Shown: positions 1-22,113 of the stretch, piece after piece
Layout of the letters: each line of letters starts with the position of its first letter
How positions within the stretch are numbered: position 1 is the stretch's first letter
Assembly: GCF_034355335.1 (NCBI RefSeq)
Contig: NZ_CP136422.1
Coordinates: 573,001-637,000 of the forward strand
Direction: 5' to 3'
From: Blautia coccoides
GTDB taxonomy: Bacteria > Bacillota > Clostridia > Lachnospirales > Lachnospiraceae
DNA: 64,000 bases
Notes under the pieces: model-generated
What the model was told of the DNA's origin: nothing
Seen by the model: the letters and a program-made list of their open reading frames with translations, nothing else
Database searches by the model: none
Program-made: the position numbers and the translations under genes

Positions 1-39
1 GAGGATTTCGGGAGAGATACCCGGGAAGAGACACCATAT

Positions 40-1230
40 ATGCAGCTTACAGAATGTATGGCGCCGGATGACGGCAGTATGCTTGAGGAACTGTCAGCAG
101 GAGTTTCTTTTCTGACAGATTTCTGGCAGGAGAAGTACCTGCAGGAATATATTACGGAAGGCGGAAGCAAGATCAAGTTCGTCAGCGGCCGGAAGGGCAG
201 CGGCAAATCACATTTGCTGAAGTTGACCGCGCACCTGGCAGAGCAGGAAAACTATGTGACTGCGACATTTTCCGCAAAGGATATCTGGATACATGATTTC
301 AGGGAAATTTATGTTGAGGTGCTCAGGCAGAGTGACCTTCTGGCGTGTCTTGAGCGGTGCAGTTATAAGATCATAGAAAACTGCGGATTTGACTACAGGG
401 AGGTTCCGGAGGATATGACATTTATGGATTACCTCTCCAGGGAGAATATGGCGGATGCCATCACCAGAAGGGAAATCCGGCTGCAGCTCAAAAGCATGTT
501 CCTGGAAAACCCTCTGATCGACAATAATTTTGCTCTGGCCTGCAGTCTTTTGACAGGAGGGATACTGGGACATCCCCTTTTGGAGGAACAGAATAAGGAA
601 CTGCTCCTGGGCTGGCTCGCAGGAGACAGGAGTGTGAAGATAACATCCCTTCGCTCTCTCGGCCTGTCCCCGGCACGGATCACCAGGGTAAATGCAAGAC
701 ATATGCTTCGTTCCCTGGCTCAGGTCATTCACATGGCAGGTTATTCGGGACTTTTGGTCACTGTGGATGATATGGAGATCCTTTTGAGCAGATCCAGCCT
801 GGAACCGCTCCATTATACCAAGCTGAAACGTGAAGATACTTACGAGAGCATCCGCCAGTTGATCGATGATATTGATACTCTGAAGAATATTATGTTTATT
901 TTTGCCTTTGACCGGGAACTGCTGGATAACGACAAAGCAGGGATCAAGTCTTATCAGGCTCTTTGGATGCGGATACAGAGCGAAATTGTCAGCCAAAGAT
1001 TTAACCGTTTTACAGATATTGTGGATATGGACAGACTGGCAGCGCAGGAATATACAGAGGCAGTTGCAGAGGATATGTGGGAAAAGCTGGCAAGGTGTGC
1101 AGACAGAGGCGGCATCCGGGCAGCAGCAGTTGACAGGGAGAAGATAAAAGAAATCCTGATCCAGTCAAAAGTGGGCGCCATAGGAATCCCCGGTCTGATA
1201 AACAGGGCTGTGCTGGGAGGTGAGGAATGA
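40..1230 (+). CDS. BREX-like P-loop ATPase, first of two
   Basis: Predicted cytoplasmic ATPase of 396 residues. A Walker A motif GRKGSGKS lies at residues 50-57 and a hydrophobic strand ending in Asp243-Asp244 is a good Walker B. The N-terminus before the P-loop is short, as in its neighbour, and the overall pattern resembles the BrxD/DUF2791 ATPases of BREX systems, although the match is weaker than for the next gene. The reading frame stays open upstream to the window edge and no strong ribosome binding site precedes the ATG at 40, so the true start may lie upstream. Its stop overlaps the next ATG by 4 nt, so the pair is translationally coupled. By analogy with BREX it may drive ATP-dependent assembly or DNA sensing for the Wadjet proteins downstream; that role is inference. 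Confidence 0.7.
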   Translation: MQLTECMAPDDGSMLEELSAGVSFLTDFWQEKYLQEYITEGGSKIKFVSGRKGSGKSHLLKLTAHLAEQENYVTATFSAKDIWIHDFREIYVEVLRQSDLLACLERCSYKIIENCGFDYREVPEDMTFMDYLSRENMADAITRREIRLQLKSMFLENPLIDNNFALACSLLTGGILGHPLLEEQNKELLLGWLAGDRSVKITSLRSLGLSPARITRVNARHMLRSLAQVIHMAGYSGLLVTVDDMEILLSRSSLEPLHYTKLKREDTYESIRQLIDDIDTLKNIMFIFAFDRELLDNDKAGIKSYQALWMRIQSEIVSQRFNRFTDIVDMDRLAAQEYTEAVAEDMWEKLARCADRGGIRAAAVDREKIKEILIQSKVGAIGIPGLINRAVLGGEE

Positions 1231-2429
1231 TGTTTGATATGGAAGCGCGTCACGTGATAGAAGCTTTGCGCTCGGGGATCCCTTCCAGGGCAGTGGGACA
1301 GTATTTTTCTGAGGCACGGCCTAAGATCATGAAGGAAATATCCCAGGAAATGGACAGGGTATGTGAGACCGGAAAATCTTCCGGCAAAATAATCGCAGGA
1401 AAATACGGAGAGGGAAAGACCCATCTGCTGAACACAGTCTTCAATCTGGCCCATTCCAACAATATGGTAGTTTCCTATCTGTCACTGAGTAAGGAGGCAC
1501 CCTTTGACAAGCTTTATCTCCTGTACCAGAAGCTGGTGAACAATACATATCTGCCAAAACGTCTGCAGCCGGGATTTATTCAGGAGCTGGAAAAGATGAC
1601 GCCCAACAGCCCTCTTGCCAGTGAAATGCAGCTCTATGGGGGAAAGGAACTGGAGACGGATAAGTTATATTACCTTCTCAAGTCTTATCTGAATACAGAG
1701 GACCAGGATGAAAAATTTCTGCTGCAGGCAGATCTGGAGGGGGATTTTATTACGAATGCGTCCCTGCGCCAGATTTACCGGAGGATTTTTCAGCAGAGAG
1801 TAAAATATAATGTAAACTTCAGCAAGACGAAGCATGCAATGGATTATTTTGACTTTTTAAGCCATTTGTTTGTGAAAATGGGGTATAATGGCTGGGTGAT
1901 CCTTTTTGATGAGACGGAACTGATCGGACGGCTGGGTAAAAAGACAAGATTAAAAGCCTACAGAAATATGGGTGAGTTTCTGCTTCCGGGGAGCCGTCTG
2001 GAATCCACATATACCATGTTTGCGCTGGGAGCCTCTTACGTGGAGGATGTGGTTGAGGCCAAGCATGAATTTGATACCCTGGCTGAGACCTTTCCTGAGG
2101 ATATGGAGCCTATGAAGACGGTGCTGGGGCTGATCACCGATGCGGAACAGCTTCAGCCGCTGACAAAGGACGAGATTCATGAGATCCTGCAGAAACTCCA
2201 GGAGTTTCACGGAAGGGCTTATGGATGGGAGCCTCAGGTGTCAGTGGAAGAACTGGCAAAGGCAACGCAGACGGGGGGATACCTTCTGCGGACAAAAATC
2301 AGGGCAGCGATCGAATTCCTGGACCAGATGTATCAGTACGGACAGGCCGGGGAAGCGGTGATCGGTGAGATGGAGACAGAGAGTTTTGAGGAGGAGATTC
2401 CTGTTCTGGCGGAAGAGGAAATTGTGTAG
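1227..2429 (+). CDS. BREX system ATP-binding protein (BrxD/DUF2791-like)
   Basis: A 400-residue P-loop ATPase. Walker A is GKYGEGKT at residues 58-65 and Walker B is the strand WVILFDE ending Asp228-Glu229. The opening 'EALRSGIPSRAV' about 50 residues before the P-loop is typical of the BREX ATP-binding (DUF2791, BrxD) family, cytoplasmic ATPases found in phage-defence loci. A good GGAGG lies upstream of the start, which overlaps the stop of the first ATPase gene; the JetD gene starts 3 nt after its stop. The six-gene unit therefore reads as one operon. No BrxC, PglX or PglZ gene is visible, so this is not a standard BREX locus. The family call is fairly secure; the role beside Wadjet is unknown. 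Confidence 0.8.
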   Translation: MMFDMEARHVIEALRSGIPSRAVGQYFSEARPKIMKEISQEMDRVCETGKSSGKIIAGKYGEGKTHLLNTVFNLAHSNNMVVSYLSLSKEAPFDKLYLLYQKLVNNTYLPKRLQPGFIQELEKMTPNSPLASEMQLYGGKELETDKLYYLLKSYLNTEDQDEKFLLQADLEGDFITNASLRQIYRRIFQQRVKYNVNFSKTKHAMDYFDFLSHLFVKMGYNGWVILFDETELIGRLGKKTRLKAYRNMGEFLLPGSRLESTYTMFALGASYVEDVVEAKHEFDTLAETFPEDMEPMKTVLGLITDAEQLQPLTKDEIHEILQKLQEFHGRAYGWEPQVSVEELAKATQTGGYLLRTKIRAAIEFLDQMYQYGQAGEAVIGEMETESFEEEIPVLAEEEIV

Positions 2430-2432
2430 GGA

Positions 2433-3461
2433 ATGAAACGACCGGACTTGGAAAGGATCAAAAAAAACAGATTCGGATATGAGGAAATATTACAGCTTTC
2501 CCCGGATCTGTCATACGAAGAGCTCCATGGAGTATTGGAAGAATTATGTGAACAAGGTGTCATAGCACCGATCAGAAAATCGGGAAAAACATCTTTTGTT
2601 CCCCAGGTATACCGTGAATACCGCAAGGTAGCAGAAAAACGGGATTACAGTTATCTCCTTCCGGAAATACGCAGTCTTCATCCAACCCTTGCCATTGACC
2701 GGTATCTGAAGGAGCCCGGGGAATTTGAGGAGTCCAGGGACTATGTCCTGCAGCTTAGCCGGCTCCTCTGGCAGGAGGATGAGCGCCTGGGCCGGTGGAT
2801 GTCTGTGAAAGAGAAATCATATGCCATCTGGGGGGACGAGAAGTTTTTAGAGAGCAGGCAGGGAAAGGCCATTCTGGCTTTCCATCGCCTGGATGAAGAG
2901 AAACTACGCTATTATCATGCACCGGAACCCTTTTTCTGCCGTGTTTTTCAGCCCGGGGAAAAAGGGGATGTGTTGGTCCTGGAGAATAAGGACTCCTGGT
3001 ATTCTATTGGCAGAGCGCTGAGAGAACACCAGGAAAAACGTATTTTCGGAATCTCTGTTGGGCTTTTAGTCTATGGAGAAGGAAATAAGATCACAAGGGA
3101 GCAGGAAGGCTTATCTGCATTTCTGGAGGAGATGGGATGCAGAAGCACAGGGCAGAGGATTTATTATGCAGGAGACATTGACCGGGCTGGGGTCGGGATT
3201 TTTTACGATGCGAAAAAACAGAATCCGGATTTGTCCATGGAACCATGTCTTCCGCTTTATCATTTTATGGTGCAGCGCGCCCTGGAGGAAAAGCGGGTTC
3301 TGGAAAAATGCAGGGATAAAAGGGAAATCGGCTGGAAAAGGGAATTCCTGGAGTATTTTCCGCTGCCATACCGCAGTTTTGTACAGCAGGTGTTGGAGGA
3401 GAACAGAAGGATCCCCCAGGAAATTTTAAATTATCAGGATTACAGGAATATGTGCAGGTGA
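2433..3461 (+). CDS. jetD: Wadjet protein JetD, Toprim nuclease subunit
   Basis: A 342-residue protein with the JetD (DUF2220) C-terminal Toprim-like domain. The Toprim acidic residues are visible: Glu184 in VLENKDSW, the glycine-rich turn YGEGNK at 214-219, and the DxD pair Asp248/Asp250 in YAGDID. In Wadjet systems JetD is the topoisomerase VI-like subunit that cleaves plasmid DNA after the SMC complex extrudes it. The N-terminal half (about 1-100) looks like winged-helix or adaptor sequence. The start lies 3 nt after the BREX-like ATPase and has a poorly spaced AGGGA, which suggests coupling. JetD lies upstream of JetA, B and C here. The catalytic residues appear intact. Confidence 0.85.
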   Translation: MKRPDLERIKKNRFGYEEILQLSPDLSYEELHGVLEELCEQGVIAPIRKSGKTSFVPQVYREYRKVAEKRDYSYLLPEIRSLHPTLAIDRYLKEPGEFEESRDYVLQLSRLLWQEDERLGRWMSVKEKSYAIWGDEKFLESRQGKAILAFHRLDEEKLRYYHAPEPFFCRVFQPGEKGDVLVLENKDSWYSIGRALREHQEKRIFGISVGLLVYGEGNKITREQEGLSAFLEEMGCRSTGQRIYYAGDIDRAGVGIFYDAKKQNPDLSMEPCLPLYHFMVQRALEEKRVLEKCRDKREIGWKREFLEYFPLPYRSFVQQVLEENRRIPQEILNYQDYRNMCR

Positions 3462-5107
3462 CAGTCATGCTGGAATTTTTAGAAGGATTTGAAAAACGGA
3501 TGGGATTTGCCGCGGTGGTGGATTCGATCGTGAACCGCAAAAACAAAAACAGTGAGATAGAGGATTGGTTTGGGGGAGAAGAACTGGATAATGTGTTCTT
3601 CTCTCTTTTAGTATATATCATGGAACGGACGCTGAATGAAAACGATGATTGTACCATTGAGAAAATGGCCGGTTTTTTAGATGATACGCTTCCCGCATAT
3701 GGGAAAGATTTTTCTTTTGACCAGATACTCCGGCTTACAGAATATATGGTGAGGGACATTCTGCAGAACAAGGGCACAGCCAGGACTTATGCTGTCATGC
3801 ATTACGATAAGGGTATGGTACAGCATCGGGTTCGGCTGATCGAGGATAAGATGACTGATGAGGGGAAAATAGTCTATCAGCTCACGGATCAGGGATATGA
3901 TTTTTTATTCAGGACAAAGGAGATTGACAGGGAGCTTGACTTTAAGCTGGAACAGTTAAAGTTGAAAGAGCTGCTGAAACGGAAAAATTACAAGCATGCC
4001 CTGAAACAGAGCCGTGAGCTGATCAGCATGCTGCGGCAGAAAAAGAGGGAAATCCAGTCTTTTGTGGACCGCATCCGGGAGAACATCCACACCATTGACA
4101 GGGGAGAGCATGAGGAGCTTCTGAAGCAGACCTATCATTTGATCGACGAGGAATATGAGGGAATGCTGGAACTGAAACGGGCTGTGGAGAAGGATGAAGA
4201 GCGGATCCGGGGTGAGATGGAGACAGGCACTGTCCCTGATGCCGCTATGGTGCAGGCAATGGAGAATCTGTCTATGATCAGGCGGAACCTTCAGATTGTG
4301 ATCAGTGAGCAGAGGAACCTGATCGCCGGCCGGTTCCGCATGAATGACATTTACGAGGAGACAATACGGAACAGTTTCTACAATTCCATGATCCGCAGGT
4401 ATGATTTTCAGAAGGAAATACTGGAGCCGTTTACAGGGGCTGAAGGAGAGCAGGTGCAGAGATTATGGGATTTGTTCCGTCCTCTTTCCGGACCAAGGTT
4501 TGAGAAGCGGCTGAATCTGGGGCTGCTTTACCAGAGGCAGGGGAAACTCCGGGATACAGAGGAGGAGGAGACAACTCTGGAGGATGAATTACTGGAAGAA
4601 GATCTGCGCATAGAACGGCAGAGAATGCTGGATGCCATGTATGAGCGTCTGATCGAGCGCATTTTTAAATACGCGGCGGACAGCGGAGGAAGTTATACTT
4701 TTTCCCGGTTATATGAACATATTCGGGAAGTTTCCCCCAGATTCGAGCGATATACCCGGGAAAACAGGATTTTTCTTGTTATGCTGAAGCTTTATGAGCA
4801 TCAGTGTATCAATGTGGAAGAGTGGAAAAACAGAACGGACCGGGGTGTTTCCGGCTCCAACGGGGAATTTGACCTTGCCTGCTGTATGTACCGGATGGAA
4901 ATGGAACATCCCGATTTTTTCGGTGTGGAGGAGCTGCATTTTGAAAAGACCGGAGAAAAGTTCAGGGCAGTTCTGGAGGAGGAACATACGGACAGGGAGG
5001 GGATTGCGGAACTGGTCCAAAGGACCGTAATGATGGATGACCTGAAGGTGTGTGTCAAGCTGCACCGGGGAGAAGAGGCAGAAAGCGGGGATGGAGAGAA
5101 TGCTTAA
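3452..5107 (+). CDS. jetA: Wadjet protein JetA, MukF-like kleisin
   Basis: A 551-residue, highly charged, mostly helical protein of the JetA family of Wadjet systems, comparable to the MukF kleisin. An N-terminal winged-helix-like region (about 1-150) is followed by a long coiled coil (about 170-310) rich in Glu, Lys, Leu and Arg, and a C-terminal region that should contact the SMC head. In Wadjet the kleisin links the JetC ATPase dimer and JetB. The gene overlaps the end of jetD by 10 nt; an alternative ATG at 3467 has a better spaced CAGGTGA. It also overlaps the longest reading of jetB. Membership is called from position, size and architecture. Confidence 0.75.
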   Translation: MQVTVMLEFLEGFEKRMGFAAVVDSIVNRKNKNSEIEDWFGGEELDNVFFSLLVYIMERTLNENDDCTIEKMAGFLDDTLPAYGKDFSFDQILRLTEYMVRDILQNKGTARTYAVMHYDKGMVQHRVRLIEDKMTDEGKIVYQLTDQGYDFLFRTKEIDRELDFKLEQLKLKELLKRKNYKHALKQSRELISMLRQKKREIQSFVDRIRENIHTIDRGEHEELLKQTYHLIDEEYEGMLELKRAVEKDEERIRGEMETGTVPDAAMVQAMENLSMIRRNLQIVISEQRNLIAGRFRMNDIYEETIRNSFYNSMIRRYDFQKEILEPFTGAEGEQVQRLWDLFRPLSGPRFEKRLNLGLLYQRQGKLRDTEEEETTLEDELLEEDLRIERQRMLDAMYERLIERIFKYAADSGGSYTFSRLYEHIREVSPRFERYTRENRIFLVMLKLYEHQCINVEEWKNRTDRGVSGSNGEFDLACCMYRMEMEHPDFFGVEELHFEKTGEKFRAVLEEEHTDREGIAELVQRTVMMDDLKVCVKLHRGEEAESGDGENA

Positions 5108-5786
5108 AAATGCACTGGCAATCTACAGAAGATTAATGGAAAAGGGTGAGCTGGATGCAAAAACAGACAGTGAGCTATATATGGATCTGAAAAATGAAGA
5201 GGTGCGTCAGATCCTGGAGCAGTTTGAAGAAGAGCTGGATTTCCGGCTCCTGGACACGGGGACAAAGGTTTATCTGATCCCCAATATGGACAATGATGTG
5301 ATGGGATATACCATGAAGGACTTCCGCACCAGGATCTCTGCTGATGCCAGGATGGCAGATGCGTATCTGCAGAGCTATATCTGTATATTGATCTTTTATC
5401 TCTTTTACGGGGGAAAGAATACAAATCCCATACAGAGGGAATTTATCCAGACGAAAGATTTGCTTGAGGAGCTGGACCGGAGGATGAAAGGTTATCTGGA
5501 AAATGAGGATGCTGCCATGGAAGCAGAAGAGGTATATGGAGTGAACTTCCTACGGATATCCCAGCTCTGGGATAATAAACAGATCGGGGACAGCGCGGCC
5601 AGAAAGTCAAAAATAGGGACCATAAAACGTGCTTACGCCCAGCTTGAGGAGGAACGCCTCATCCGTATTCTGGAGGATGGAAGGCAGATCCGCAGGACAA
5701 AGCGTATGGACGATCTGTTCCTCTATTATTATCTGGATGAGGAACGGGTACAGGAGATCCACGGAATATTTGCGCAAGGAGAATAG
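5091..5786 (+). CDS. jetB: Wadjet protein JetB, MukE-like (DUF6063 type)
   Basis: A 231-residue acidic, helical protein in the JetB position, between the kleisin and the SMC protein. It resembles the DUF6063 family that accompanies JetA in clostridia and is expected to be a tandem winged-helix MukE-like partner of the kleisin. The conserved part begins at MERMLKNALAIY, so ATG 5091 is chosen; the frame is open to a GTG at 5052, which would add 13 residues without obvious conservation. The start lies inside the end of jetA, and the stop is 3 nt before jetC. No catalytic motif is expected. An arginine/lysine-rich C-terminus could contact DNA. Confidence 0.7.
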   Translation: MERMLKNALAIYRRLMEKGELDAKTDSELYMDLKNEEVRQILEQFEEELDFRLLDTGTKVYLIPNMDNDVMGYTMKDFRTRISADARMADAYLQSYICILIFYLFYGGKNTNPIQREFIQTKDLLEELDRRMKGYLENEDAAMEAEEVYGVNFLRISQLWDNKQIGDSAARKSKIGTIKRAYAQLEEERLIRILEDGRQIRRTKRMDDLFLYYYLDEERVQEIHGIFAQGE

Positions 5787-5789
5787 AAG

Positions 5790-8700
5790 ATGCCTAAGAT
5801 TAACAGAATCCGAATTATAAATTTTTCCTACAACAATGATACCAGAGAAATCCCGGATGAGACTTTCCGGTTTTATGACGGGGAAAATGCGCTTCTGAAT
5901 CTGTCAAACGGGGGAGGAAAGACCGTGCTGATCCAGTTGTTTATGCAGCCTATCCTGCCCGACTTAAAACTGCAGAAGCGGAAAATGACCGACTATTTCA
6001 GGAGAAACAGCGCCCCTGCATATGTTCTCATAGAATGGCTTCTGGACAACCCTTCTGTGAAGGATTATCTGATGATGGGAATTGCCATTGCGCCTGGGAA
6101 TTCTGCAAATATGGAGGAGAGCAACAAGATCCATTACTTTACGTTTGCCAGCCATTATCAGAGAGCCTGTGAATTTGATCTGCAGGCTGTGCCTTTTGTC
6201 AGAATGGATGGGGAGCGGCAGGTGCTCCTGCCTTTTGAGCGGGCAAGGGAAAGTGTGAAGAAGGTGGTGGGAAGCCATCGGGAGATGTTTTACTTCGGAA
6301 GAGAGGATGTGGGCGAGTACAGGAAACTTCTGGGGCAGTTCGGCATTTCCCAGGAAGAATGGAAAAATATCATTGCCCGTATGAACAATGATGAGGGCGG
6401 GATCACACAGTTCTTTGATAAATGCGGCACATCAGACAGCGTGCTGAATGAATGGATCATTAAAAACATAGAAAAATCCCAGCTTGCGGGGCAGACGGAG
6501 GATACAGGGATCCAGGAACTGCTCGCAGGCCTGGTGTCGGATACCATAAAAAACCAGGAGTACATCCGGGCGCAGAAGATCATACAGGAATACCTGGAGG
6601 AACAAAAGGCTCTGGAAACAGACATGGATGAATTGTGCAGAGCGCTTGACACCAGGACGCAGATACAGAACAAGCTGAACGGAATGTATCAGGCTCTTGG
6701 CATTCGGGCAAGGAATGCGGGCGCTGACAGGGAGGAAGTGAATTTCCGGCAGGAAGAACTGTTTGCGGAACTGCGGCATATTGATCAGGAGGAAGCGTCT
6801 GAAACGTACAGACAGTCCCAGGAGGATTTTCTGGAGGCGTCGGAACAGGTGCGGATACTGCAGGCAGAGGGAGAGAGCCTGCGGGAACAGTTGGCCCGGT
6901 GCCGTAGGGAGAAGAACTGCCAGGAGGGCGCAGGGATCATGGAGGAGATCCGGAGACTCCGGGGAAAAATCTCTGCCCTGAAACAGGAAATGGAGCGGGA
7001 ACAGGGAGACAAAAGTCTGGAAAAAAGGCTGAAGGATCTGGCCTATTCCCTGAAACTGCAGAGCAAACAGCGTCAGCGTGCCCTTGAAACAGAAGCGAAG
7101 GATCTGCAGAAAGAGATAGATGAACTCAGCGCTTTGTGCGGAGAACTGAGGGAAAAGGAAGATGCGGACAAGGCAAAGTGGGGGAATCTGAAAGTAAAAG
7201 CCGGGGCGCTTAGAAGCAGGGTGCAGCAGTTTGAAAAGGAGCAGGAACGTGTCTTTGAAAGACTGGGCTTTGCCCTGACAAGAAATGTTCTGGAACAGTT
7301 GGATACCCAGGAGACAGAGAAGTATAAAAAGCTGTTGGAGAAGAATGTGAAGGAGAGCGGCAAAAAGTTCTGTCAGTGCACAGAACAGGAGGCCGGGATC
7401 AGGGAGCAGAGAATAGAACTGGCGCAGAAGGTGACAGAACAGAGCCGCAGCCTGTATGATCTGGAACAGGAACTGGCAGAAGTCCGTCGCGAGCAGTCTG
7501 TTTTCCTGGATGGGAAGGCACAGTGTGAGGCCTATTTGGATAAGTATGGTGTGGAGAAATCACTTTTGTATGAACCGGAAGCCCTCAGGCGTATTTTTGA
7601 AGAAAAGATGGACCTGCAGAAAGCATGGACATATCAGGCGAGAAGCGAACACCGGCAGATAGGAGATATGATTTCCGGAATCAGGAACCACTGTGTCTAT
7701 CTGCCTGAAACACTTCTTGCGGCAGTGCAGGAACAGGATATCAGTTTTCAGACCGGGGAGGCCTATCTGCAGAATCTGCCGGAGGAGAACCGAAAACAGC
7801 AGCTTTTGAGAAATCCCATGCTGCCTTTTGGATTGATCCTGGAGAAGAAAGATTTAGGTAAGCTGGATCATATTTCTTTCGGGGAGTGTTATTTGAGGCA
7901 GATCATACCAGTGTTTACCTATGAACAGCTTGGGAATGAACTGGTACAGGAAAAGCAGAGGGTGATCCTGGGGGAGCAGGCAGAGTTTATTGCGGTTTAT
8001 GAAGAACAGATCTTCTCAGATGTACAGAGAGAGGAGTATCTGCAGCGCCTGGAAATGCAGAGGGAAGATTTGGAAAAGCTCATGAAAAACAGGGGGGAAG
8101 AGGAACAGCAGTTATATCAGGCAAAGATCAGGCTGGAAAGCTTTCATTATAAAAAAGGTACAAAAGAGGAATTTGAAAAACAGATCCTGCAGGGGAAACA
8201 GAAACTGGCAAAGATGACAACGGAAAAGGAGCGCCTGGACATAAAAGCAACCAGTTTGGAAGAAGAACAGGAACGTCTGGCAGAGATGCTGCCAAAGTTT
8301 AGGGAAATGCTGGCTGATGCGAAGGAAAAAGCAGAGTGCTATGAGAAATTTCTGGAAGCGGATGTACAGTATCAGATTGATTTTAAGGCGTATACTGTCA
8401 CCATGGAAGAACTGCAAAAGCTGGATAAAAGCGCAGTAGAATGTAAGAGACAGCTGGAAGCATGCAGGGAAAAAGAAAATCAGCTGCGGGAGCAGTGTAT
8501 ACGGATGGAAAATCTATGTAGGCGGGCAAAAGAGACTGTGGCAGTTTATGCGGAGGCAGAAGAGGCGGAGGTTCTGGACGAAGCATTTGAGAAGATGGAG
8601 CAGGAATACAGGACACTGACGGAAGAACGGGAGAAAAACCAGGCAGCCCTGCAAAGAGAAATGGAAGAAGCCAGAAGAGAGCTTGGCCGTCAGGAGGAAA

Positions 8701-10220
8701 AGACGGAAGAGCTGGAAGTTTCCAGGGAGGAATATGAACAGCTTGCATACCGCCCGGAACGGGAAAGGGAGCTGAAAAAGGATATCAGGGAACTGGAAGC
8801 AAAAAAGGAGGAGAGTGACAAAAATTATCGTGAAACCGGAATCCGGGCTGCAAAAATAGAGACAGACAGGAATCATGCAAAAAGCAGACTAAAGGAACTT
8901 GGACTGGAGCAGCCGCTTGACGATGCAGAGATATGCCAGGATTATGAGCGGAGGAGAAAAAATCTCAGGTTTGAATCAGATAAACTCAGAGAGAGGGCAG
9001 AGGAATTAAAGCGTCTGAGGGAAGACTGTGAAAGCCTGCAGAAAAGGATCCGTGATGTGGTTCCGGCAGCAGCGGGAACGGATGTACATCTGAAGCTGGA
9101 AGAGGATATGGAGAAGCAGTTCCTGGACATGAAGGAGGAATACAGGCAGGCGCGGAGATCAGCAGAGCAGAAAAAGAGGAATTGCAGCAAGAGGTATTTG
9201 GATATAAGGGACCGGTACAGAGGTAAAAATCAATGTGTGGAGGATATTCTGGAATCGCTGTCTTCCATGCCGCTGGAGGATGTGGATCTTTCCTATGATA
9301 CCATTTATTTTTATCTGGAAGAGTTCATGCTCAAGCGTGAAAACCTGGAAAAGCTTCTGGATTATTACAGTACACAGCTGGAGACGATCAGCCGCACCAG
9401 GAACCAGATCGTAGATCAGTGCGTCAGCTACGGAACCGGAATTTATGAGGAGATCAAAGCCATTGTGTCAAAATCCAGGATCCGTCTCAGCCAGAAAAGC
9501 AGGCCGGTCCAGATGCTGAAAATCGACGTGCCCAGGGAACTGGACAACAAAGTACGGGAACGGATGGATGAATATATAAACAGATGTCTGGAGATCATGG
9601 TCTCTTTGAATAAAAAAGAAGATGCATCCGGAAATGAGAAGAAGATACGGGAGAAGCTCTCTGCTCTCACATCCGGCAGAGAGCTGTTGAACCAGGTGAC
9701 GGGAACGAATAAAATACCTGTTTTTGTCTATAAGATCGACTTGAATGAAAAGAACAGCGGCCTGAAACGCTGGGAGGATGCCATGGATCAGAATTCGGGA
9801 GGTGAAAAGTTTGTGGTATTTTTCACTCTGGTATCAACTCTCATATCTTATGTCAGGGAAGTTACCAGAAGAAATGCCGGAGGAGATGCCATGCTGGAGT
9901 CCAAGGTGCTGATAATGGATAATCCTTTTGCAAAGACATCTTCTGAACACCTCTTAAAAGCAGTGATGGATATTGCAAAAACCTTCAAAATACAGCTGAT
10001 CTGCCTGTCAGATCTGAGCCAGAGTTCTATTACCAACCGATTCAGTCTGTTCTACCAGCTCAGCATTAGGAAACGCATGTACAGCCAGAAAGAAGTTGTG
10101 AAGACAGGGCCTGTACAGATAAACCAGCCGGGGATTTCTGAAAATGAGAGACTGGAACATATGGAATTGTATGAGACGGGGAAACAGGGAGAGCTGTGGG
10201 AGCTGATGGGAGAGCTGTGA
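5790..10220 (+). CDS. jetC: Wadjet protein JetC, SMC/MukB-like ATPase
   Basis: A 1,476-residue SMC-type ATPase, the motor of the Wadjet complex. The N-terminal head carries a P-loop at SNGGGKT (residues 39-45). Long coiled coils rich in Glu, Lys, Gln and Arg run from about 270 to 1,250, interrupted near 600-720 by a globular stretch that should be the hinge. The C-terminal head has an ABC-like signature NSGGEK near residue 1,335 and a Walker B strand KVLIMDNPF near 1,372. In that strand the residue after the Asp is Asn rather than the usual catalytic Glu; this may be normal for the subgroup or may change ATP hydrolysis. AAGGAG lies just upstream of the ATG. A terminator-like hairpin follows the gene, closing the operon. 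Confidence 0.85.
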   Translation: MPKINRIRIINFSYNNDTREIPDETFRFYDGENALLNLSNGGGKTVLIQLFMQPILPDLKLQKRKMTDYFRRNSAPAYVLIEWLLDNPSVKDYLMMGIAIAPGNSANMEESNKIHYFTFASHYQRACEFDLQAVPFVRMDGERQVLLPFERARESVKKVVGSHREMFYFGREDVGEYRKLLGQFGISQEEWKNIIARMNNDEGGITQFFDKCGTSDSVLNEWIIKNIEKSQLAGQTEDTGIQELLAGLVSDTIKNQEYIRAQKIIQEYLEEQKALETDMDELCRALDTRTQIQNKLNGMYQALGIRARNAGADREEVNFRQEELFAELRHIDQEEASETYRQSQEDFLEASEQVRILQAEGESLREQLARCRREKNCQEGAGIMEEIRRLRGKISALKQEMEREQGDKSLEKRLKDLAYSLKLQSKQRQRALETEAKDLQKEIDELSALCGELREKEDADKAKWGNLKVKAGALRSRVQQFEKEQERVFERLGFALTRNVLEQLDTQETEKYKKLLEKNVKESGKKFCQCTEQEAGIREQRIELAQKVTEQSRSLYDLEQELAEVRREQSVFLDGKAQCEAYLDKYGVEKSLLYEPEALRRIFEEKMDLQKAWTYQARSEHRQIGDMISGIRNHCVYLPETLLAAVQEQDISFQTGEAYLQNLPEENRKQQLLRNPMLPFGLILEKKDLGKLDHISFGECYLRQIIPVFTYEQLGNELVQEKQRVILGEQAEFIAVYEEQIFSDVQREEYLQRLEMQREDLEKLMKNRGEEEQQLYQAKIRLESFHYKKGTKEEFEKQILQGKQKLAKMTTEKERLDIKATSLEEEQERLAEMLPKFREMLADAKEKAECYEKFLEADVQYQIDFKAYTVTMEELQKLDKSAVECKRQLEACREKENQLREQCIRMENLCRRAKETVAVYAEAEEAEVLDEAFEKMEQEYRTLTEEREKNQAALQREMEEARRELGRQEEKTEELEVSREEYEQLAYRPERERELKKDIRELEAKKEESDKNYRETGIRAAKIETDRNHAKSRLKELGLEQPLDDAEICQDYERRRKNLRFESDKLRERAEELKRLREDCESLQKRIRDVVPAAAGTDVHLKLEEDMEKQFLDMKEEYRQARRSAEQKKRNCSKRYLDIRDRYRGKNQCVEDILESLSSMPLEDVDLSYDTIYFYLEEFMLKRENLEKLLDYYSTQLETISRTRNQIVDQCVSYGTGIYEEIKAIVSKSRIRLSQKSRPVQMLKIDVPRELDNKVRERMDEYINRCLEIMVSLNKKEDASGNEKKIREKLSALTSGRELLNQVTGTNKIPVFVYKIDLNEKNSGLKRWEDAMDQNSGGEKFVVFFTLVSTLISYVREVTRRNAGGDAMLESKVLIMDNPFAKTSSEHLLKAVMDIAKTFKIQLICLSDLSQSSITNRFSLFYQLSIRKRMYSQKEVVKTGPVQINQPGISENERLEHMELYETGKQGELWELMGEL

Positions 10221-13444: not shown

Positions 13445-14188
13445 ATGGAGAAATTCAGGAATACTGTGGAATTTCAGGTGAGCGGTGACTATGCGTTATT
13501 TGCTAATCCTGTTATGCGTGTTGGTGGAGAAAAGTGCAGCTATCACATACCTACATACGAGGCATTAAAGGGGATTCTTCAAAGTATTTATTGGAAACCC
13601 ACTTTGGTTTGGATCATAGATGCAGTGCGGGTTATGAATGGGATACAAACAGAAACGAAGGGGGTAAGGCCAATCGTATATAATGGAGGAAATGACCTGG
13701 CATATTATACATATTTAAAAAATGTGTCTTATCAGGTGAGAGCTCATTTTGAATGGAATGAAAACAGAAAAGAGCTGATTCATGACAGAAATGAAAACAA
13801 ACATCATAATATTGCAAAGCGTATGGTTATGCGTGGAGGGAGAAGAGACATATTTTTAGGAACACGTGAATGTCAGGGACTTGTCCAGGAATGTGTATTT
13901 GGAGATGGAGAAAGTTATTATGATGATATGACGGGTGAAGTGGCATATGGGTTCATGTATCATGGGATAACCTACGCAGATGAGGCGGTACTGGAAGAAG
14001 ATAAAGGGAAAATGACGGTACGTTTTTGGAATCCTGTAATGAAGAAGGGGGGAATAATTGAATTCCAGCGCCCAGAAAAATGTACGATAAAACGATATAT
14101 TAGGCAAATGGGTATAAAATCATTTGGTGAAGGCGAGTTCACAGGATTAAAGGAATTTGAAGAGGAGGAAAGTGCTTGGATTGGGTAA
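13445..14188 (+). CDS. cas5c: Cas5c, type I-C crRNA endonuclease
   Basis: A 247-residue Cas5 of type I-C (Cas5d/Cas5c). In subtype I-C this protein replaces Cas6: it cuts pre-crRNA at the repeat hairpin and stays bound to the 5' handle. The N-terminus FQVSGDYALFANPVMRVGG and the EALKGIL segment are typical of the family; a glycine-rich GGRRDIFLGTRECQG stretch lies near 130. RBS AGGAGGTGA lies just upstream of the ATG. The end overlaps the start of cas8c by 13 nt, which indicates coupled translation. Confidence 0.92.
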   Translation: MEKFRNTVEFQVSGDYALFANPVMRVGGEKCSYHIPTYEALKGILQSIYWKPTLVWIIDAVRVMNGIQTETKGVRPIVYNGGNDLAYYTYLKNVSYQVRAHFEWNENRKELIHDRNENKHHNIAKRMVMRGGRRDIFLGTRECQGLVQECVFGDGESYYDDMTGEVAYGFMYHGITYADEAVLEEDKGKMTVRFWNPVMKKGGIIEFQRPEKCTIKRYIRQMGIKSFGEGEFTGLKEFEEEESAWIG

Positions 14189-16158
14189 GTGAGTTATGTG
14201 ATTTATATGAGAAAAATAAATATTTAGCGGGCGAAATGCGGTATAAAGAACAGATTAGAAAAAATGGATTAGAAAAGATTCCACTGGTTCTGCTTCCTCC
14301 TTTTCATACTACGGTAACGGCACAGATTACGGTGACAATTAGCGAAAGTGGTGAGTTTCAAGATGCAAAACTTGTTGAAAACGAGGACAAACTTACGATT
14401 ATACCAGTCACAGAGAATTCAGCCAGCCGGACTTCAACAGTAGTACCTCATCCTTTATGTGATAATATTAAATATTTGTCAGGTGATTATAAAGACTATT
14501 GCATAGAGGGTACTAAGAACGCTGAAGAGTGCTATCAGTTATATATAGAAGCCTTAAGAAGGTGGCATATCTCATTGTATTCCCATAAGAAGGTAGATGC
14601 ATTATATCTGTATTTGAGTAAAAAATGTCTGATCTGGGATTTGGTGAATGAGGGTGTGCTAAAGCTGGGAGAAAACGGGAAACTATCTGAATCAGTTAAA
14701 ATACAGGGGATTGAGCAGGATAAGTCATTTGTACGATTTCGTATATTAGAGGAATATCAAGGGGATGAGGATATCTTGTCTGATATAACAGGTCAATATT
14801 ATTCAGAATGCTGGTTGGATCGTACTTTGCAGGAGCGATTCATTCAGTATTATCGATCTTTAATGACAGAAAAAGATATCTGTTATTTGTCGGGTAATAT
14901 TGAACAGCCAACCTATTTACATTCCAAAAAAATTAGAAATGAGGGCGATAATTCTAAATTGATTTCTTCCAATGATAAGGATTATTATACTTTTCGAGGA
15001 AGATTTCATAATAAGGAGCAGGCGTTTGCTATTGGCAATGAAACATCCCAGAAGGTACATAATGCCCTAAAATGGATTATCAGAAGACAGGGGAAAAACA
15101 TAGATACATTTTGTATCGTATCGTGGGAATCTGATTTGTGTCCAATGCCGGAGTGGGATTTGGATACAGACTCAATTTGCAGTCAGTATGAAGAGGATTG
15201 GGGCGAGGAGGAGGAAGAGGTTCAGGTATGGGATGGCAATCAAGCAGGAGCTTTCCAATTTAGTGCTGCACTGCTTGGATATCGACGAAAACTGGAGAAT
15301 ATGTCACGTATGGTACTAATGGCATTTGATGCGGCAACTACGGGCCGACTTGCGCTGGTAGAGTACAAGAATCTGGAGACATCACGATATCTGGATAATA
15401 TAAAATATTGGCATAAAGAGTGTGAATGGCTGCATTTAAAGTTTAAGGAGGGTGGTTCTTATTACTATAAAGGGATGGTTGGTGTGAAAGAAATTGCCGA
15501 TATAATTTATGGTACAGAGCAGAATGGAATACTTTCTCTGGGAAATAAAAGTAAGTTATATGGTCAGATTTACAGGCGTTTGATTCCTTGTATATGGGAC
15601 CAGATGGATGTGCCGTTTGATATGGTAAATCTTGCAGTATCCAGAGCGTCATCACCTGTATCCTATGAAAAGAGGTATAACTGGGAGCGGACATTATCAC
15701 TGGCATGCTCCCTTGTAAAAAAGATGAAAAAGCAGCAAAACCCAAAGGAGGTATGGACATTGGCATTGAATAGAAAAAGCCGGGACAGGAATTATTTATA
15801 TGGAAGGCTGTTGGCAGTTGCGGACCGGGTGGAATATAGGACATTTGATAAAAAGGACAGAGATGCGAACAGGGAAACCAATGCCAGAAGGTATATGAGC
15901 ATGTTTTCACAGCGGCCATATGAGACATGGAAGATAATAGAGGAGAGTTTAGCACCATATTTTTCGAAGTTAAAGTATCAGGAGAAAATTTATTATTGCA
16001 AACAGTTAGAAGAAATTTGTGAGTTGTTTGATGAGGAAACTTTTAAGGATAACAGCAAATTAGATGGGCTTTATTTGTTGGGATTTCATAGTGAGTCCTA
16101 TGAGCTGAGAAATAAGGAAGCGGATAAAGCGCAAGATATAACAAGTGAGGAGGAATAA
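14176..16158 (+). CDS. cas8c: Cas8c (Csd1), large subunit of type I-C Cascade
   Basis: A 660-residue Cas8c/Csd1, the large subunit that recognises the PAM and helps recruit Cas3. It begins with TTG at 14176 behind GAGGAGGA, inside the end of cas5c. Family features are the early DLYEKNKYLAG segment, a central INTERACTION-type stretch with AFAIGNETSQKVHNALKWII, and the acidic segment near 345-355. The length is slightly above the usual 570-620 residues because of this acidic insert. The C-terminal helical bundle may act as the small subunit; in I-C an internal start often yields Cas11, which cannot be confirmed here. Confidence 0.92.
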   Translation: MDWVSELCDLYEKNKYLAGEMRYKEQIRKNGLEKIPLVLLPPFHTTVTAQITVTISESGEFQDAKLVENEDKLTIIPVTENSASRTSTVVPHPLCDNIKYLSGDYKDYCIEGTKNAEECYQLYIEALRRWHISLYSHKKVDALYLYLSKKCLIWDLVNEGVLKLGENGKLSESVKIQGIEQDKSFVRFRILEEYQGDEDILSDITGQYYSECWLDRTLQERFIQYYRSLMTEKDICYLSGNIEQPTYLHSKKIRNEGDNSKLISSNDKDYYTFRGRFHNKEQAFAIGNETSQKVHNALKWIIRRQGKNIDTFCIVSWESDLCPMPEWDLDTDSICSQYEEDWGEEEEEVQVWDGNQAGAFQFSAALLGYRRKLENMSRMVLMAFDAATTGRLALVEYKNLETSRYLDNIKYWHKECEWLHLKFKEGGSYYYKGMVGVKEIADIIYGTEQNGILSLGNKSKLYGQIYRRLIPCIWDQMDVPFDMVNLAVSRASSPVSYEKRYNWERTLSLACSLVKKMKKQQNPKEVWTLALNRKSRDRNYLYGRLLAVADRVEYRTFDKKDRDANRETNARRYMSMFSQRPYETWKIIEESLAPYFSKLKYQEKIYYCKQLEEICELFDEETFKDNSKLDGLYLLGFHSESYELRNKEADKAQDITSEEE

Positions 16159-19173: not shown

Positions 19174-22113
19174 GTCACCACCTTCGCGGTGGTGTGGATT
19201 GAAATGGCGTATATCTGTACAGTTATGCAGATACGGATGCGTCACCACCTTCGCGGTGGTGTGGATTGAAATGGCATTCTTTTTCTTTTTGGCATATTAC
19301 CATCCGTCACCACCTTCGCGGTGGTGTGGATTGAAATATGCCTATCTGTTTCAGCTCTCGTTCAGTCATAGTCACCACCTTCGCGGTGGTGTGGATTGAA
19401 ATGACTTGACGGTTCAGCAGGCGCTTGCGGATATCGGTCACCACCTTCGCGGTGGTGTGGATTGAAATATTCTATAGGCAGCTGATGATGATTATTAAGT
19501 ACGTCACCACCTTCGCGGTGGTGTGGATTGAAATGGCCAATCCCTGCATAAAGTCCGGCATCCAGGACGTCACCACCTTCGCGGTGGTGTGGATTGAAAT
19601 ATGAGGGAATGTTTTCTGGCCGTGGTCACGAATGTCACCACCTTCGCGGTGGTGTGGATTGAAATGCCCAGCGTTTCCTGGATGATTGAAATGTAATTGG
19701 TCACCACCTTCGCGGTGGTGTGGATTGAAATAATCTGATCTTACCCATACCTTTCACCTATCCCTGTCACCACCTTCGCGGTGGTGTGGATTGAAATGCA
19801 ATGGAGTGGGGGAGACAGACACGCCACGTATCGTCACCACCTTCGCGGTGGTGTGGATTGAAATAAGGCAGATAACAGAAGGGGCAGAAGAGAATGCCAG
19901 GTCACCACCTTCGCGGTGGTGTGGATTGAAATACCGTAATTTCCTATCACCACAGTGGTGAAAATAGTCACCACCTTCGCGGTGGTGTGGATTGAAATGA
20001 TGAGTATGGTGCGCCCTCAATGTCTCCTGCTAGTCACCACCTTCGCGGTGGTGTGGATTGAAATGTGAGCATATTAAAGGTCTCTTCCCAATTGAGCGTG
20101 TCACCACCTTCGCGGTGGTGTGGATTGAAATATCTACCTCGTTGTAGGTGTAGGATATCCTGTCGCGTCACCACCTTCGCGGTGGTGTGGATTGAAATAT
20201 AAGATCTTCGAGATAGAAGGCAATGTGGAACGGTCACCACCTTCGCGGTGGTGTGGATTGAAATATGTCTGATGAGTGTTACAAGATGGCTACGACAGGT
20301 CACCACCTTCGCGGTGGTGTGGATTGAAATGATAATAAGGTGATGTCATGGAAAAAATGGAATTGTCACCACCTTCGCGGTGGTGTGGATTGAAATATAC
20401 CGCGGAATCCTTATTTTCATGGTCACTTCGTCACCACCTTCGCGGTGGTGTGGATTGAAATAAAATTGATAATTAAGTATTGACAATGCCACAGTGTCAC
20501 CACCTTCGCGGTGGTGTGGATTGAAATATAACGAAAACCGTAAATTATGTGATCTGGACAGTCACCACCTTCGCGGTGGTGTGGATTGAAATGTTAAAGG
20601 AAAGCTCTAAAGATTGGACTAGGCGGTCACCACCTTCGCGGTGGTGTGGATTGAAATATGAAAAGATGTACGGTGCCGGAACAGCAGCTTAGGTCACCAC
20701 CTTCGCGGTGGTGTGGATTGAAATATGATGACATTTCAAAGTATGGAGATTTTAACTGGTCACCACCTTCGCGGTGGTGTGGATTGAAATAATTTGCAGA
20801 GCAGGAGATGCGCGGTATTCCGATGTCACCACCTTCGCGGTGGTGTGGATTGAAATGCCTTGTCCTCTTCGTAGCTGTATATGATATCCCGTCACCACCT
20901 TCGCGGTGGTGTGGATTGAAATGAAAACATGACAGAGGAAGAAGCCAAAGCCCTTACGTCACCACCTTCGCGGTGGTGTGGATTGAAATGAAATATCCGA
21001 CCTGGACCCAGAATCGGAATTATAGTCACCACCTTCGCGGTGGTGTGGATTGAAATCTTCGATTCTAGTAGTTAATCTGCCTGAAAGATCGTCACCACCT
21101 TCGCGGTGGTGTGGATTGAAATAAAACACGCTCCTCAGCGATTAGTTAGATAAAAAGTCACCACCTTCGCGGTGGTGTGGATTGAAATACGATGTGGCTA
21201 TACAGAGCTAAGACTTCGGGAGTCACCACCTTCGCGGTGGTGTGGATTGAAATACAACAACAACAGTTACAAATGCTTGCGAGGCGTCACCACCTTCGCG
21301 GTGGTGTGGATTGAAATAATAATTTTGTACCATCTTCGTTATCGATACGTTGTCACCACCTTCGCGGTGGTGTGGATTGAAATGAAGGTATATCGCATTT
21401 TGAGTCCACTCTCGCTCGTCACCACCTTCGCGGTGGTGTGGATTGAAATTCTGTGTTCAATTCTGCATCTCCAAGTTTCTTCCGGTCACCACCTTCGCGG
21501 TGGTGTGGATTGAAATAAAGGCGTATTTCCCATTGGTATTGTTGCCCAGGGTCACCACCTTCGCGGTGGTGTGGATTGAAATGGAGAAACGCCGGAGGCG
21601 GAAGCCCAGCTCGCGCGTCACCACCTTCGCGGTGGTGTGGATTGAAATGAGCGATGATGCGACTGCATACATATTCAAATTTGTCACCACCTTCGCGGTG
21701 GTGTGGATTGAAATGTATTGTCATACACCAACCGCACAAAACTGGTGTCGTCACCACCTTCGCGGTGGTGTGGATTGAAATGTGATAATGCTGTCATCAT
21801 GACCAAGGCGCCGAGAGTCACCACCTTCGCGGTGGTGTGGATTGAAATATTTCCAGCTTGCTGCCGTATATGCCACCTGTGCCTGTCACCACCTTCGCGG
21901 TGGTGTGGATTGAAATAACGAAGAGCCCATCTGCATTGGCCTCTTCTTGTGTCACCACCTTCGCGGTGGTGTGGATTGAAATATACGCCGCAGGCGGCAC
22001 AACACAGATGCTGGATGTCACCACCTTCGCGGTGGTGTGGATTGAAATATCAATAGAAGATCTCACAGCATATGAAAACGCGTCACCACCTTCGCGGTGG
22101 TGTGGATTGAAAT
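19174..22113 (+). CRISPR. Type I-C CRISPR array, 45 repeats and 44 spacers
   Basis: I counted 45 copies of a 32-nt repeat beginning GTCACCACC and ending GGATTGAAAT, with no variation noticed among them, separated by 44 spacers of 32-36 nt (mostly 34). The repeat contains the palindrome CACCACC-TTCGC-GGTGGTG that folds into the hairpin cut by Cas5c, leaving the usual ATTGAAAT-type 5' handle. The first repeat is at 19174-19205 and the last at 22082-22113. Transcription is rightward from the leader next to cas2, so the newest spacers are on the left. The spacers all look different from each other. Confidence 0.98.

Follow-up and report, generated by a model that had tools for sequence, protein, structure and literature searches.

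Genes at the Locus

The DNA analysed here, hereafter called the window, is a stretch of 64,000 nucleotides (nt) from Blautia coccoides (bases 573001–637000 of a 6.10 Mb single-contig genome). It begins inside a row of genes in which two BrxD-like AAA+ ATPases, ATPase 1 and ATPase 2, run directly into the jetD, jetA, jetB, and jetC genes of the known anti-plasmid system Wadjet, and which upstream of the window edge includes genes for a protein of 255 amino acids (g255) and for an XPB/Rad25-like helicase (Table 1). It is highly probable that these eight genes represent two separable systems, a helicase-ATPase module and a type III Wadjet, joined once end to end; they are regarded as separable because the module occurs without jet genes and jet genes occur without the module.

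The initial annotation of this DNA had assigned both ATPases to the BrxD/DUF2791 kind, and this agrees with their scores against PF10923 BrxC_BrxD (111 bits for ATPase 1 and 99.6 bits for ATPase 2, cut-off 22.2). The open reading frames (ORFs) also bear out the tight spacing that it described, i.e., a 4-nt overlap between the two ATPase genes and a 3-nt gap between ATPase 2 and jetD, and its naming of the four Jet proteins is upheld by the PADLOC type III models, except that DUF6063 (PF19539), which it attributed to JetA, is jetB. Its expectation of further genes beyond the window edge was correct, as g255 and the divergent helicase are found there. Matches to all four of JetA3, JetB3, JetC3, and JetD3 sit in one operon-like row in the order D-A-B-C, the translations of JetC and JetD contain the Walker A and signature motifs and the Toprim acidic residues, respectively, and the single JetC3 match in the genome is jetC of the window. 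Judged by these families and motifs, the Jet genes are a complete type III Wadjet. The start of jetB probably lies near 5091–5100, downstream of the listed GTG, as suggested by comparison with Blautia schinkii. Walker B motifs of SMC proteins usually read Asp-Glu; in JetC of the window the motif is Asp-Asn (DNPF), as it is in the six loci, out of 24, where the script pattern matched (L015, L017, L024, L025, L027, and L030).

Table 1. Positions of the eight genes in the window and in the sequence upstream of it.
Feature	Position	Strand	Basis
XPB/Rad25-like helicase, 533 aa	L004:15265–16866 = genome C1:570265–571866, upstream of window	-	ORF, domains
g255, 255 aa	L004:17167–17934 = genome C1:572167–572934, upstream of window	+	ORF
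ATPase 1, BrxD-like AAA+	1–1230, start 20 nt before window edge	+	416 aa in full; Pfam/PADLOC/NCBIfam matches
ATPase 2, BrxD-like AAA+	1227–2429	+	Pfam/PADLOC matches; Walker B D-E
jetD (type III), Toprim nuclease	2433–3461	+	JetD3 273 bits (PADLOC); E and GDID motifs
jetA (type III)	3452–5107	+	JetA3 (PDLC00562) 648 bits (PADLOC)
jetB (type III, DUF6063)	5052–5786 (listed GTG start 5052)	+	JetB3 300 bits (PADLOC)
jetC (type III), SMC-like ATPase	5790–10220	+	JetC3 494 bits (PADLOC)

A Conserved Four-Gene Module

Helicase, g255, ATPase 1, and ATPase 2 are a conserved four-gene module. Relatives of ATPase 2 were collected from a set with a single genome for each species, which may leave out records very near the window's genome, and 80 of the 91 loci obtained were analysed. 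ATPase 1 was present at all 73 loci with at least 2300 nt of upstream sequence and g255 at 72 of them, while helicase, g255, and ATPase 1 were all found at 60 of the 64 loci with at least 3900 nt upstream. The helicase gene is divergent and upstream at 62 loci; it has the same orientation as the others at four, being upstream at one of these and downstream at three. Apart from these four, the commonest protein cluster is present at only 14 of the 80 loci. The genes 3′ of ATPase 2 vary among loci, and in 29/80 a simple ORF caller puts the following gene on the other strand. The pairwise distances of the four proteins correlate with coefficients of 0.86–0.95 (59 loci and the window), to which shared host history can contribute. 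Named hosts include many Lachnospiraceae, Desulfosporosinus, and other Bacillota, as well as spirochaetes represented by metagenome-assembled genomes. Searches returned 948 relatives of g255, and 2236 and 1821 proteins at E ≤0.001 for the two ATPases, distant family members included. Among these proteins are ATPase 2 relatives from metagenome contigs with 82–89% identity (P0002–P0028).

No Pfam, PADLOC, or NCBIfam model names the module as a unit, and no relative was confirmed or matched in the viral contigs and phage records scanned. The open-access literature, searched by titles, beginnings of abstracts and passages and with subscription papers mostly outside it, yielded no description of the module or of its junction with Wadjet, and a literature search on DUF2791 found no paper. 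The flanking proteins (up to two per side, at least 150 amino acids) numbered 249, of which 118 drawn at random among those of at most 700 amino acids were scanned. Septu (PtuA, PtuB), PDC-S01, and PDC-M12 were among the matches listed, i.e., among the best 25 of 61 PADLOC and 25 of 90 Pfam families, and this says nothing on enrichment either way.

Module and Wadjet Are Rarely Found Together

The initial annotation had proposed a single system of six or more components that comprises the two ATPases and Wadjet. The ATPase pair instead goes with helicase and g255, and among the 63 module loci with at least 1500 nt downstream, jetDABC follows ATPase 2 at one, that of B. schinkii (L030). Two further module loci, L153 and L154, are without jet matches. 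At the Schaedlerella arabinosiphila locus L060, jetB/jetC-like genes are present on the other strand about 4 kb from the module (L060 15192–20390).

A similar picture is obtained when starting from the jet genes. JetA3 was detected at E ≤0.001 in 17 of 291 genomes of the class, four of which also contain PF10923; it lies beside jet in the window's genome only, and in the other three it is on another contig or 3.6 Mb from jet. Sixteen other Wadjet regions and four more were examined. Fourteen type III loci, counted by hand, offer 2.3 kb or more of sequence before jetD, and none of them has an adjoining module gene; a weak helicase match is located about 6 kb from jet in L019. In 397 genomes of the window's family, taken as Lachnospiraceae from the named relatives, JetA was matched in 66, a number that includes weak matches (29 are at E 1e-20 or better), and ATPase 2 in 29, of which nine are full-length and 20, being weak or partial, were not counted. 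JetA and full-length ATPase 2 occur together only in the window's genome, while about 1.5 genomes would be expected by chance; in two other genomes with JetA (G467 and G553) the ATPase profile gives a short and weak match, located on a different contig. Within the family sample, the Jet set closest to that of the window is found in G486, with identities of 53% (JetD), 60% (JetA), 69% (JetB), and 48% (JetC), and is not accompanied by the module. As each part is mostly found without the other, a six-component complex is not the usual state of either, and the ATPase pair is not a regular part of Wadjet. The idea that the pair is conserved beside jet in other genomes holds for B. schinkii, with the same eight genes, and is otherwise mostly refuted. 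The claim of a Wadjet with BREX-type ATPases can be traced to a rare junction and to the point at which the window starts.

The Junction in Two Blautia Species

In B. schinkii all eight genes, from helicase to jetC, recur in identical order. Between the two species the identity is 69% for the helicase, 82% for g255, 79% for ATPase 1, 87% for ATPase 2, 66% for JetD, 76% for JetA, 83% for JetB, and 67% for JetC, and the DNA similarity ends inside the helicase gene and at the jetC stop codon. When the flanks in B. schinkii (5.8 kb past the helicase and 2 kb past jetC) were compared with the window plus the preceding 18 kb, one short protein-level match was obtained, away from the borders. The gap between ATPase 2 and jetD is 3 nt in the window and 29 nt in B. 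schinkii. In a four-protein tree the two loci are sisters (support 0.997), with the jet-free locus L031 next to them (support 1.0); the helicase, g255, and ATPase 2 trees agree with the sisterhood (0.99, 0.93, and 0.93, respectively), and in the ATPase 1 tree the three loci are not resolved from one another. No jet genes were found in the 9 kb after the module in L031, where a loss of such genes is possible. Because the joined loci are sisters with unrelated flanks, a single joining is the simplest account. On the evidence of these alignments and trees it probably took place in the common ancestor of the two loci and was followed by long retention of the eight genes as a cassette.

In the window, jetC is followed by a type I-C CRISPR-Cas system (cas3 and cas5 by family scan, from 10955), in which we take the gene at 14176–16158 to be cas8c from its position, and by a CRISPR array that starts at 19174 and has at least 45 repeats, spaced at about 66 nt. 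On the other side, the region upstream of the helicase (L004:4004–14300) consists largely of transposase-like genes, judged by eye, and the ABC transporter gene adjoining the helicase (L004:14306–15136) appears truncated at the 3′ end.

Helicase, g255, and the Two ATPases

The helicase has ResIII and Helicase_C domains, and its closest solved structures are XPBII and archaeal RAD25. Its best PADLOC family is PbeA (200 bits, profile positions 250–635 of 672), and SngC is not in the best 25 of the 26 PADLOC families that match it. With the g255 protein PADLOC returned nothing at E 0.1, and Pfam gave a single marginal hit, to a coiled coil (E 0.067). Its predicted structure, with a mean predicted local distance difference test score (pLDDT) of 90, combines a long helical hairpin with an alpha/beta part; a fold search with the whole model returned no convincing match, with long-helix matches at residues 1–71. 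As g255 matches MutH, though very weakly (E 0.37), a PD-(D/E)XK nuclease was considered for it; this was dismissed because the acidic residues in question are variable among the aligned proteins.

The 300-nt gap between the helicase gene and g255 contains promoter-like sites, two facing g255 and one facing the helicase. In the scanned region the consensus was matched four times against a shuffle mean of 2.0 (standard deviation 1.6), and a second promoter scan gave 17 matches against 13.4 in shuffled sequence; the sites of both scans are consensus matches only. The main promoter of the cassette is probably located before g255, and we infer that the eight genes are co-transcribed.

Both ATPases match the BrxD and SngB models of PADLOC and fall below the cut-off of the NCBIfam BrxD equivalog NF033438 (74 and 54 bits, cut-off 350); ATPase 1 has in addition a weak BrxC match of its ATPase core (19.7 bits). 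ATPase 2 retains Walker A, and Walker B is D-E in 25 of 25 aligned proteins. In ATPase 1 the first aspartate of Walker B is kept and the next residue (264) is D or N in 20/20 aligned proteins. The glutamate of Walker B is linked to ATP hydrolysis, and because its position is occupied by D or N, the alignment makes efficient hydrolysis by ATPase 1 doubtful. The predicted structure of ATPase 2 (pLDDT 85) is fitted best by archaeal ORC/Cdc6 proteins (ORC, origin recognition complex) and less well by TnsC; Foldseek returned no match at E 0.001 or better, with BrxC among the first ten.

A Possible Mechanism

It is conceivable, and somewhat less than an even prospect in our view, that the module works by helicase loading. 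The accessible passages of a survey of bacteriophage exclusion (BREX) systems from 2026 place BrxD in the ORC/Cdc6 class and propose that it loads the helicase BrxHI (PMC12839542), and the present suggestion extends that proposal to the module by inference. ATPase 2, with complete Walker A and B motifs, and ATPase 1 would form an ORC/Cdc6-like hetero-oligomer on DNA, in which ATPase 1, without the Walker B glutamate, probably binds ATP and hydrolyses it poorly. With g255 as adaptor the hetero-oligomer would then load the helicase on foreign or abnormal DNA, or release it there. The type III Wadjet is predicted to extrude small circular DNA, with JetD cutting. Such a sequence of events, SMC extrusion followed by JetD cleavage of small circles, is described for Wadjet in the parts available of a review, according to which the work has mostly concerned type I and types II and III are still to be characterised (PMC10586767).

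Alternative Explanations

The same eight genes could instead constitute one eight-component system, in which the AAA+ pair and the XPB-like helicase act with JetABCD, e.g., by loading the SMC complex or exposing DNA. The identical content and order in two genomes with different flanks speak for this, as do the operon-like spacing and the genus sample of 20 genomes, where the genome with ATPase 2 is also the only one with JetA and the other 19 have neither, consistent with joint arrival. On the other hand, each part occurs without the other in most of the other genomes examined, and the module that branches next in the tree, that of L031, is free of jet genes in the 9 kb behind it. Nor is there a sign of a new contact domain, since protein lengths are alike in joined and unjoined loci (ATPase 2 has 400 and 397 amino acids in the joined loci and a median of 402; JetA has 551 and 563, as compared to 562 in G486). 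We therefore consider a single system very improbable, and the same applies to a composite immune machine in which the ORC/Cdc6-like pair and an XPB-like translocase would recognise or open incoming DNA and pass it to the Wadjet SMC nuclease. If true, such a machine would combine loading of the replication-initiator type with loop extrusion by an SMC complex. The Wadjet is best read as a co-expressed partner of the module and not as part of one machine.

At the other extreme, module and Wadjet may be chance neighbours in a defence island, so that the junction is meaningless and the type I-C CRISPR-Cas lies adjacent for the same reason. The cas3 and cas5 genes, the array at 19174, and the transposase-like genes on the far side of the helicase fit this explanation, which overlaps with the one preferred here; the latter adds shared expression across the junction. 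Chance does not readily explain why two species whose flanks are unrelated have both retained the junction with its short gaps, and no cas gene was found in the 2 kb after jetC in B. schinkii, so that mere neighbourhood appears unlikely. It is unlikely to a similar degree that the module is a DNA-maintenance or mobile-element helper rather than a defence system. No further protein cluster occurs in more than 14 of the 80 module loci, which therefore have no transposase or replicon gene in common; the ATPases match BrxD and SngB models, and the presence of the module is patchy (9/397 genomes of the family). We regard the module as a putative defence system.

With two systems joined end to end as the preferred explanation, the more interesting object is no longer the Wadjet with added ATPases but the four-gene module, which is of the helicase-plus-BrxD/SngB kind and has many relatives. 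An ORC/Cdc6-like pair, one member apparently without the catalytic glutamate, together with an XPB-like helicase is a simple set for studying helicase loading in defence, and the module raises the question of whether bacteria use replication-initiator-style helicase loading for this purpose. The two joined loci furthermore provide a natural case for asking if sharing an operon turns two systems into one.

Comparison with Known Systems

With type III Wadjet the locus shares all four proteins, the order D-A-B-C, and the Toprim and SMC motifs. It differs in the four extra genes in front, which are not beside jet at the 14 other loci.

Two candidate identities for the module as a whole were rejected. 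Membership of BREX was dismissed as the NF033438 scores are far below the cut-off and the core genes PglZ and PglX were not found nearby; neither is among the families listed for the 11 distinct proteins between L004:14306 and window position 14188. PbeABCD was considered because part of the helicase matches PbeA. It is ruled out by the gene descriptions in the available portions of two papers, in which PbeC is an ABC-type ATPase and PbeB and PbeD are small (PMC6459918; PMC10853773), and PADLOC gave no match to PbeB, PbeC, or PbeD among the module genes at E 0.01 or 0.1.

Distant relatives of the ATPases were met on three plasmid records, two of which were examined. The Desulfomonile tiedjei plasmid pDESTI.01 (27 kb) has a g255-like protein, two BrxD-like ATPases and a helicase in one row (L160 6147–11573), and its g255-like protein is detected by the g255 profile at E 8e-7 (Z set to 1000, nine proteins searched). 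The row is unlike the module in that the helicase is SngC/BrxHI-like, all genes are on one strand, and identity is about 21–25% in the longer alignments. The Natrinema zhouii plasmid carries a plain Shango, SngA-SngB-SngC. Behind this Shango the annotation lists a metallophosphoesterase and an SMC-family ATPase (L159 3455–13200), so that here too a helicase-AAA+ set lies near an SMC-type protein.

Shango, which consists of a TerB protein (SngA), one SngB ATPase, and the SngC helicase, resembles the module in combining a BrxD/SngB-type AAA+ ATPase with a superfamily 2 (SF2) helicase and one more protein, and ATPase 2 reaches the Natrinema SngB by tblastn with 22.8% identity. The module, in contrast, has two ATPases, g255 in place of a TerB protein, and an XPB/Rad25-like helicase; the SngB model gives 72 and 62 bits for its ATPases against 565 for Natrinema SngB, and SngA was not encountered, since PADLOC at E 0.1 returned nothing for g255. 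The BrxD-BrxHI pair of type 2 BREX likewise ties a BrxD-type ATPase to an SF2 helicase. The class of the helicase differs, however, as BrxHI is Ski2-like according to the accessible text of the BREX survey (PMC12839542). Judged by its protein families, the module most probably belongs with Shango and BrxD-BrxHI as a relative that has two ATPases, a different helicase, and a small subunit of its own.

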